Translations under genes and position numbers: made by a program
Notes under the pieces: generated by a model
What the model saw: only the letters and a program-made list of their open reading frames with translations
Told to the model about the DNA's origin: nothing
Database searches by the model: none
Origin: an uncultured Spartobacteria bacterium
Lineage (GTDB): Bacteria > Verrucomicrobiota > Verrucomicrobiia > Chthoniobacterales > UBA6821
Assembly: GCA_903823215.1 (NCBI GenBank)
Contig: CAIJRY010000131.1
Span: 1 to 32,126 of the forward strand
Length of the DNA stretch: 32,126 nucleotides
Reading direction: 5' to 3'
Part shown: positions 20,172 through 31,817 of the stretch, piece after piece
How positions within the stretch are numbered: the first letter of the stretch is position 1
How the letters are laid out: each line of letters begins with the position of its first letter

Positions 20172-20594
20172 TCACTTTTCCAGTGAATCTGATCGGCGCA
20201 CCGCATCGGCGATCACCGAAGCGCCACTCTGGGTCAGTGCTCTCTTCCAAGGCAGCGTCCCCTCAATTTCAATTTCCAACGAGAAAGAGAGGAAGGTTCG
20301 GATCAGGACGATGATGCCGAGGGTGAAGACATTGTCGAGCGTCGGAGCGACCGCCACCGTGCGGATCAAATCACCGGCCACGAGCACTTCCAGCCCAGCC
20401 AGAATCGCGCCGCCAAGAGTTCGCCTCAGAACCGTATAAGCAAGATTTCCATCGCCGGAGTTCTTCCATGTCTTCAACGCGAGATAAGCGGCAAAAAATA
20501 GTCCCGCGACCAGAATTGCCACCCCGATCCCATCCGCTACATGGACAATGACGCCGAGGACTTTGAGATAAGTGTCAGGAGCTTCCATGGGCAC
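20172..20594 (-). CDS. DUF1622-like integral membrane protein
   Basis: VIVHVADGIGVAILVAGLFFAAYLAL...LRRTLGGAILAGLEVLVAGDLIRTVAVAPTLDNVFTLGIIVLIRTFLSFSLEIEIEGTLPWKR resembles DUF1622. Confidence 0.8.
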   Translation of the reverse strand: MPMEAPDTYLKVLGVIVHVADGIGVAILVAGLFFAAYLALKTWKNSGDGNLAYTVLRRTLGGAILAGLEVLVAGDLIRTVAVAPTLDNVFTLGIIVLIRTFLSFSLEIEIEGTLPWKRALTQSGASVIADAVRRSDSLEK

Positions 20595-20671
20595 ATACTA
20601 ACTGAAGCTCCAAACAACAGGAGAAGCTTTAATTTCATGAACCTTGCACACGGCCTCCGGATGAGTCAGAA

Positions 20672-20945
20672 GTGTGCTGATTGGTAAATATCTATACATT
20701 TGTTGCGATCAAAATGGCCCGCCGCCAAGGCGCGACGAGGGAGCGATATCGTTGCATACCGTAACCGAGGAGCAACGCAGGCGCCGGGCTATTTTCATCG
20801 CAACCCTTTGGGCCGGGGGAATATTGGTGTTTTTCTGCGTTGCTCGCTCGGGCAGTATCGCAACGGATACTGCCGCTTCGCTCGCGCCTTGAAAAACACC
20901 AATATTCCCTCCGGCAAATGGATAGCTATTTACCAATCAGCACAC
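20672..20945. mobile_element. 274-bp MITE-like palindromic element with 31-bp TIRs and two internal hairpins
   Basis: TIR GTGTGCTGATTGGTAAATATCTATACATTTG (20672-20702) vs CAAATGGATAGCTATTTACCAATCAGCACAC (20915-20945): 29/31. Hairpin 1: 20702-20726 / 20780-20804 (22/25). Hairpin 2: 20812-20835 / 20891-20915 (near-perfect). Inner stem GGCAGTATC / GATACTGCC. No convincing ORF. Confidence 0.85.
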
Positions 20946-20955
20946 AACCAACCCC

Positions 20956-21516
20956 ATGAACCGGCTCCTCCTTGCACTTCTCATTCTCCCCATTGCTTCG
21001 ATTATGGCTGTACCGATCGATCAGATTCCCTTCAAGACGATGGAGGGGAAGGATGCCTTGCTGAAAGATTACTCGGGCAAGGTGATTCTGGTGGTCAATG
21101 TCGCCTCCCGGTGCGGCAATACCCCGCAGTATGCAGGCCTGGAAAAACTCTACCGTCAATACGGGCCGCAGGGATTCGTGATTCTCGGATTCCCCTGCAA
21201 TGATTTTGGTGCCCAGGAGCCGGGAACCAATGAGGAGATCAAGACCTTCTGCACCTCAAAGTACGAGGTCTCCTTTCCCATCCTTGATAAAATCCATGTG
21301 AAGGGAACCGATCAGGCTCCGCTCTACGCGGCATTGACGGGGCCGGAAGCCAAGTGTCCGGGCGATGTGAAATGGAATTTTGGAAAGTTCCTGATCGGAC
21401 GCAACGGTGAGGTGCTCGCCCGGTTTGAGCCCGGGATGAAGCCCGATAATCCAGCGGTAGTGAACGCGTTGGAGGCGGCGCTGAAAGCACCGCCTGCTAC
21501 TCCAGCTCGAAATTGA
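20956..21516 (+). CDS. Glutathione peroxidase family protein with N-terminal signal peptide
   Basis: MNRLLLALLILPIASIMAVPIDQIPFKTMEGKDALLKDYSGKVILVVNVASRCGNTPQYAGLEKLYRQYGPQGFVILGFPCNDFGAQEPGTNEEI...WNFGKFLIGRNGEVLARF. Confidence 0.95.
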   Translation: MNRLLLALLILPIASIMAVPIDQIPFKTMEGKDALLKDYSGKVILVVNVASRCGNTPQYAGLEKLYRQYGPQGFVILGFPCNDFGAQEPGTNEEIKTFCTSKYEVSFPILDKIHVKGTDQAPLYAALTGPEAKCPGDVKWNFGKFLIGRNGEVLARFEPGMKPDNPAVVNALEAALKAPPATPARN

Positions 21517-27404: not shown

Positions 27405-27704
27405 ATGTCCCGCAAACGCAAATATCTTTGTTTCTGCCTACTGATATTGGCAGGAATTTTTATGACTAGTGGTAGTATGCCCAGGTGTTATTCGATTCTA
27501 GGATCCTCTGAAAAAACAAGGGCAATCATAGTTGATGATGAACTGATCTTTATCTTTAAGATTTTTATTGGCTTTTGGTGCTTCTTGATCGGGTTGTTTC
27601 TCCTTATCTCTGGTTATGTTCGAAGCCGTCCTCGGCAAACTCTCCAACTCGATTCAGGCGCAGGAAGTTTGGATGCTGCGCAAGGCGCGCGAGTGAAGCT
27701 GTAG
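27405..27704 (+). CDS. Small putative membrane protein, hypothetical
   Basis: MSRKRKYLCFCLLILAGIFMTSGSM...ELIFIFKIFIGFWCFLIGLFLLISGYVRS: two hydrophobic segments in an AT-richer patch. Longer ORF starts at 27333. Confidence 0.4.
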   Translation: MSRKRKYLCFCLLILAGIFMTSGSMPRCYSILGSSEKTRAIIVDDELIFIFKIFIGFWCFLIGLFLLISGYVRSRPRQTLQLDSGAGSLDAAQGARVKL

Positions 27705-27708
27705 TCTT

Positions 27709-28779
27709 CTACTGCGAATGAGCAGCAACGCCGCGCTGTGCCAAAATTCCAAGCTTATCACGCACAGCGGGGGCGACACAGGTGCCGAGTAACTCAATTC
27801 CTTTCAATGCTACGGGATGAGGCAAGGTTCCCGGGCTCATCTGGATCGTGATCCTGTCGATGCCGCCAAGGACATCATGATAATGAAGGATCTTTTCTGC
27901 GACCGTGTTGGGATCGCCGATGATCAGCGCACCACCGGGGCCACAGACTGCATCAAACTGAGCGCGGCTAATCGGAGGCCATCCCCGCTCCCTGCCAATC
28001 TGTCCGAACATCAGCGCATAGCCGGGAAAGTATTGATCACCAGCCTGCTTTGTCGTCTCAGCCACATGGCCGAGGGCATGGATGCCAACTTTCAGTTTCT
28101 CCGGTGCATGGCCCGCCTTGGCTCCGGCCTCACGATACGACTCGATCAGCGGACGGAAGCGGTGAGGTTGCCCACCGATTATCGCCACCATCAGGGGCAG
28201 TCCCAGCATCCCTGCGCGGACAAAGGACTGCGGAGTACCACCGACTCCAATCCAGATCGGAAGCGGATTCTGTAAGGGGCGCGGAAAGATGGCCTGGCCT
28301 GTAAGTGGAGCGCGATGTTTTCCTTTCCAAGTCACATGGAGTTCTTTCCGGATTTGAAGCAAGAGTTCCAGCTTCTCAATGAAGAGCGAGTCATAGTCCT
28401 GAAGATCGAGTCCGAAGAGGGGATAGGCCTCGGTGAAAGAACCCCGTCCGACGACGATCTCAGCGCGGCCCTTGGAGAGGAGATCGAGCGTGGAAAAGTT
28501 TTGAAAGACTCGGACAGGATCTTCGGCACTCAGGACAGTAACCGCACTCGTGAGTCTGATCTGCTGAGTCCGTGCTGCTGCGGCGGCAAGGAGAATAACA
28601 GGCGCTGAATCAAGGAACTCCTCTCGATGATGCTCCCCGATGCCAAAGACATCGAGACCCACCCGATCAGCCATCTCTACCTCTTCGAGTAGATTGCTCA
28701 GTCTCACGACCGGATCAACCAGGGTGCCGGTGACGGGATCGGCAAGCGTGGCAACAAAGCTATCGAGTCCGATTTGCAT
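27709..28779 (-). CDS. LLM-class (luciferase-like) flavin-dependent oxidoreductase
   Basis: MQIGLDSFVATLADPVTG...ADRVGLDVFGIGEHHREEFLDSAPVILLAAAAARTQQIRLTSAVTVLSAEDPVRVFQNFSTLDLLSKGRAEIVVGRGSFTEAYPLFG...LPIWIGVGGTPQSFVRAG. Confidence 0.93.
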   Translation of the reverse strand: MQIGLDSFVATLADPVTGTLVDPVVRLSNLLEEVEMADRVGLDVFGIGEHHREEFLDSAPVILLAAAAARTQQIRLTSAVTVLSAEDPVRVFQNFSTLDLLSKGRAEIVVGRGSFTEAYPLFGLDLQDYDSLFIEKLELLLQIRKELHVTWKGKHRAPLTGQAIFPRPLQNPLPIWIGVGGTPQSFVRAGMLGLPLMVAIIGGQPHRFRPLIESYREAGAKAGHAPEKLKVGIHALGHVAETTKQAGDQYFPGYALMFGQIGRERGWPPISRAQFDAVCGPGGALIIGDPNTVAEKILHYHDVLGGIDRITIQMSPGTLPHPVALKGIELLGTCVAPAVRDKLGILAQRGVAAHSQ

Positions 28780-31769: not shown

Positions 31770-31817
31770 CCTTCTTGTCCGAACGGTCTCCATGCGATTC
31801 AATCAGCGCTTCTTTAA

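Follow-up and report, generated by a model that had tools for sequence, protein, structure and literature searches.

A cloverleaf-shaped MITE-type element beside a glutathione peroxidase gene belongs to a family of elements in Verrucomicrobia that share an interior and differ in their ends

Introduction

MITEs are usually regarded as remnants that decayed from a single transposon, whose ends define them. Bacterial MITEs with a TA target include Correia/NEMIS, RUP (with IS630-Spn1) and ERIC, listed at about 100–200 bp; they encode no protein, carry terminal inverted repeats (TIRs) and a terminal TA, lie between genes and form strong stem-loops (PMC2229807). TIMEs, miniature elements derived from Tn3, are described with Tn3-type ends and target duplications of 5–6 bp; they are about 262 bp long, non-autonomous, and contribute to mosaic elements (PMC4133298). 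REP/REPIN palindromes, reported also from Verrucomicrobia, measure 20–40 bp, are tagged with GTAG or CGTC and are linked to RAYT transposases (PMC3733652). The IS5 group (NF033581) and its MITEs have GGAA-type ends and YTAR target duplications.

Here we describe a 274-bp element in a stretch of 32,126 nucleotides (the window) from an uncultured Spartobacteria bacterium. It resembles Correia/NEMIS, RUP and ERIC in the features named above, but each of those families has one set of ends, whereas here a fixed two-armed cloverleaf of ~274 bp occurs with several kinds of ends; beyond this general plan, the TA target is the only feature in common with Correia-, RUP- and IS630-type MITEs. TIMEs are alike in size and in being non-autonomous, but are not known to combine a single interior with several unrelated ends (PMC4133298). 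Like REP/REPIN sequences, the element is multi-copy hairpin DNA, but with its 274 bp, its TIRs and the target duplications of its relatives it differs from them in size and architecture (PMC3733652). The window copy has other ends than the IS5 group (GTGTGCTG, TA), and neither GGAA-type ends nor a YTAR duplication, while relatives in its own genome have both. An IS5-family element of a congener shares its ends with this YTAR class; only the outer ~18 bp are in common, and the interior of the class is not IS-derived. No description of this cloverleaf family was found in the open-access literature.

Results

The element occupies positions 20672–20945, and its coordinates and make-up agree with a preliminary description of the window. 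Its left TIR (GTGTGCTG type, 20672–20702, forward strand) pairs with the right TIR (20915–20945, reverse strand) at 29 of 31 positions (self-BLAST E 2.5e-9). Two long palindromes, likewise described before, lie between them. Arm A, a hairpin of 103 nt at 20702–20804 (forward strand), is seen in the fold and as a palindrome and is conserved across end types; its outer stem (20702–20726 with 20780–20804) pairs 22 of 25 positions. Arm B, a hairpin of 104 nt at 20812–20915 (forward strand), is seen in the fold, as a palindrome whose outer stem is near-perfect by self-comparison, and by the covariance model of arm B (R2; 81.7 bits, E 7.8e-21). The arms are separated by a small CCTTTGG hairpin of 7 nt in the fold (20805–20811, forward strand), whose CCC/GGG is kept across end types. 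Folded as single-stranded DNA the element reached -90.5 kcal/mol compared to -42.9 kcal/mol for shuffles (z -12.2), and as RNA -150 kcal/mol (z -12.6, dinucleotide shuffles); none of 200 shuffles folded as well.

The two arms also resemble each other in inverse orientation, with a local score of 22.5 against a maximum of 12.5 among 200 shuffles. The likeness had been read as growth by inverted duplication of a smaller unit; the sequences of four copies, that in the window among them, support this, but in more diverged classes it is undetectable. As had been noted, the element contains no credible transposase: the longest open reading frame touching it (20700–21203, 167 aa) corresponds on inspection to no known protein. 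A search of Rfam 15 gave nothing beyond a miRNA match at chance level, whose 17.3 bits fell short of the cut-off of 94. At 274 bp, non-coding and bounded by TIRs, the element has the make-up of a MITE. It is flanked by AA on both sides (20670–20671 and 20946–20947), possibly a 2-bp duplication, although such a match arises by chance 1 time in 16; the TA duplication found in relatives with the same end type (L002, G007:C45) is absent here in its usual form.

The element lies between two divergent genes, both outside it: a DUF1622 protein gene on the reverse strand (20172–20594; PF07784, E 3.6e-20) and, on the forward strand, a glutathione peroxidase family gene, gpx (20956–21516; PF00255, E 5.6e-39), whose ATG begins 10 bp after the right end of the element. 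From this proximity it had been proposed that the outward right end may supply the promoter or leader of gpx; the strong fold would also fit such a role. In the congener G007, however, the orthologous DUF1622–gpx pair (90% and 81% protein identity, respectively) lies 92 bp apart from start codon to start codon and lacks the element, while the spacing in the window is 367 bp, or 93 bp minus the 274, as counted from the sequences. The window copy is therefore an insertion. Relatives of the element adjoin unrelated genes, no Rfam family matches it, and a promoter scan of 20560–21000 revealed no sigma-70-like or other promoter-like site. A promoter role in gpx thus has no support, and a reading of the element as a conserved structured leader or promoter of this gene is very improbable. 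In G007 the gpx ATG is closely preceded by AGAAGGA, and in the alignment the insertion falls beside the corresponding CAGAA; judging from this one congener, the insertion may have displaced the ribosome-binding site from the gpx start codon. The element is a real MITE-type insertion, mobile and non-autonomous, and not a peroxidase leader.

Searching the genome of the same organism (G000; 2.3 Mb, 260 contigs, 95.9% complete) with the element DNA gave at least 22 matches, including self-matches of the ends; copy counts derived from such searches are lower bounds. The element is thus not single-copy. A second copy with GTGTGCTG ends was found in this genome (C227:288–547) and a third with window-type ends in the congener (G007:C45, L152). 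When the species-genome collection was scanned for exact matches to the window-type end, only the G007 contig (DKEN01000103.1) was found. The majority of the relatives in G000 bear other ends, GGAAVCGCTGATTTAATC (YTAR type), which occur there at 55 sites at least with up to 2 mismatches (reversed control 0). One TA-flanked copy, in L007, is nested in a YTAR-type element of known intact form and so provides a filled and empty pair, with the TA duplicated. Spread by phages or plasmids found no support, as no match was obtained in phage records, plasmid records or viral contigs.

The window holds two further traces on the reverse strand: a solitary YTAR (IS5-type) end beside a gene start at 31782–31813, probably the remnant of a second element, and a weak match to arm B only at 27658–27754 (E 0.028), which overlaps the end of a predicted open reading frame and is possibly a solo arm. 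Five YTAR-class copies (L006, L013, L029, L036, L045) lie within 1 bp of the stop codon of a neighboring reading frame; as YTAR contains TAA or TAG, insertion of this class restores the stop codon. Extra hairpin modules, each recurring, are inserted in the arms of several copies (L002, L068 and G007:C45 [L152]; L017, L082 and L128; L004), and the resulting mosaic elements reach 577 bp. Palindromes that consist of ends only were also seen, two of 27 bp adjoining YTAR (L042 1492–1518, L048 1501–1527) and one of 65 bp with a 3-bp duplication (L245 1502–1566); they are perhaps elements pared to their ends through hairpin deletion. In other families of the order, IS5-type ends occur on MITEs of ~138–151 bp with a different interior (L110, L112, L116, L119, L133, L150).

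Beyond the genus the same blueprint recurs in the order: an end stem of ~30 bp, arm A of ~104 nt, a tiny CCC/GGG hairpin and arm B of ~104 nt. R2 detected arm B at E ≤ 1e-4 in at least 44 of 197 genomes and at least 10 of 45 genera of the order, with no more than 20 candidates per genome scored, and at E ≤ 1e-6 in 8 of the 388 genomes of a phylum-wide sample. Outside the order, the full architecture was confirmed for G382 only, from the same class (L281, L289), and G290 carries solo arms. Many contigs of G112 and G025 start or stop within a copy, the elements being frequent enough in these two genomes to break the assemblies.

At least eight end types were found on the full architecture: GGAAVCGCTGATTTAATC, GTGTGCTG, GTGTCCTGTC, GTG(T/C)ACCGTC, GTGTTGTGTAACC, GGAGGCTGTTGAAATAC, GAACCTGTGAAATAATT and GGGTGAGTTTTAATAC. 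A further type, GGGAGCCGTTTCAGAAATC, sits on a related interior (L078), and another, GAGCGTTTT, on the one-armed forms L007 and L015. Thirteen representatives of the eight types were folded, and 12 of them gave the same order: an end stem of ~30 bp, then arm A, the small hairpin and arm B. The arms measure 96–106 nt and lie at a nearly constant distance from the ends. The interior of the window copy is 64–84% identical to other full-length interiors across classes (shuffled 55–60%), and arm A aligns with arm A and arm B with arm B. The TIRs of most classes, in contrast, are near the shuffled level when compared with each other, with moderate likeness among some TA-type ends.

Target-site duplications, expected of a MITE, were seen among the relatives in each end class examined. 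The YTAR class shows an exact 4-bp flank duplication in 20 of 51 copies and the G112 class an exact 3-bp duplication (TNA) in 10 of 10. TA (2 bp) flanks 18 of 26 copies overall (10/14, 6/10 and 2/2 in three classes), although, TA being palindromic, flanking TAs alone cannot tell a duplication from a fixed target. Scanning lengths from 2 to 9 bp revealed no other duplication length in any class. Among DDE transposons, different duplication lengths imply different transposases.

A partner was found for the YTAR class. The congener G010 contains an element of ~1,234 bp with the ends GGAAACGCTGATTTAATC and GGAACCGCTGATTAAAGC, which encodes an IS5-family transposase of 325 aa (NF033581, E 1.7e-102); copies or fragments of it occur in G015 and G016. 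This IS5 element is likely the motor of the YTAR class. The G000 assembly contains neither the element nor a DDE_Tnp_1 or IS5 protein; repeats are often lost from assemblies of this kind. For the end type of the window copy and for the TNA type no autonomous partner was found, and inspection by eye of the reading frames on the inner side of unpaired ends in G112 and G025/G051 revealed no transposase. The earlier classification as MITE-like is thus borne out: the element is multi-copy, its orthologous site in the congener is empty, relatives show target duplications, and the sister end class has an IS5 partner.

To assess conservation of the fold, 25 elements of the YTAR class were aligned with the window copy, and the structure was taken from one member. 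In this alignment 93.4% of the cells were paired, compared to 37–44% when the structure was slid, and both sides had changed in 46 of 106 stem pairs (22.7 in shuffles). This shows that the fold has been kept among the elements. Such covariation in a palindrome can be attributed to fold-back repair without selection as well as to selection. Conservation did not differ between unpaired and paired positions (p 0.78), whereas a protein-binding loop would predict stronger conservation of the unpaired ones.

Discussion

We hold with good confidence that the window element is a cloverleaf-shaped, non-autonomous transposon of MITE type from a large family of Verrucomicrobia; movement in trans, exchange of ends within the family and the lack of a role as gpx promoter are inferred parts of this reading. 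In the unit of ~274 bp the TIR end stem of ~30 bp closes arm A, the tiny hairpin and arm B, and a transposase encoded elsewhere would act on the TIRs; for the end type of the window copy this would be a TA-duplicating transposase. Co-resident copies might swap ends by recombination through the shared interior, and fold-back repair of the palindrome may afterwards make both ends alike.

The tree of interiors bears on how one interior came to carry several ends. The window copy clusters with TA-type copies of other families in the order, separately from the YTAR copies in G000, and seven end groups require 8 changes on the tree where 6 is the minimum possible. In an ordinary MITE family the ends would have slowly co-diverged with their transposases, and the interior would be there by descent, with no role and no exchange. 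A loose CTG...AAAT theme common to several end types fits this course, as does the YTAR class, which is one clade on a tree that needs only two changes of duplication length. The duplications of 2, 3 and 4 bp, however, imply different transposases, and the interiors rise above the shuffled level, to which the TIRs of most classes stay close. Moreover, GTGTCC ends are interspersed with GTGTAC ends on the tree, and two elements with TA on both sides have a left and a right end of different types (L261 55–327 in G025 and L262 165–456 in G051), resembling products of an exchange. By inspection the two halves of arm A in L261 seem to stem from different parents, which recombination inside the shared interior would produce. 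Exchange between related TA-type ends is supported, with direct evidence limited to two such ends; one old change would be enough to account for each of the YTAR and TNA types. We consider co-divergence without exchange a serious reading, though the less probable one.

The arms themselves might instead have been mobile in the manner of REPINs and have invaded unrelated MITEs independently, and one-armed or solo-arm forms do exist (L007, L015, L083, L282, L290 and the weak match at 27658–27754 of the window). These may be deletions, however, and the near-constant arm lengths and distances from the ends, together with the alignment of each arm with its own kind across classes, fit descent from a single ancestral element with two arms. 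Independent invasion by mobile arms is therefore improbable.

An interior shared by elements with different ends had not been foreseen in the preliminary description, and the occurrence of a conserved non-coding cloverleaf with several transposition systems is the new point of this work. The interior seems to have outlived several of these systems. More tentatively, and with the balance tilted against it, the interior might be a selected functional device, a folded DNA or RNA recognized by the host or the transposition machinery, which persists through changes of its ends and is spread by successive host transposases from at least three transposition systems. In this family the inside stays while the ends change. 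If this is true, both the maintenance of a non-coding transposon for its own fold and the way in which small elements switch transposase would become testable.
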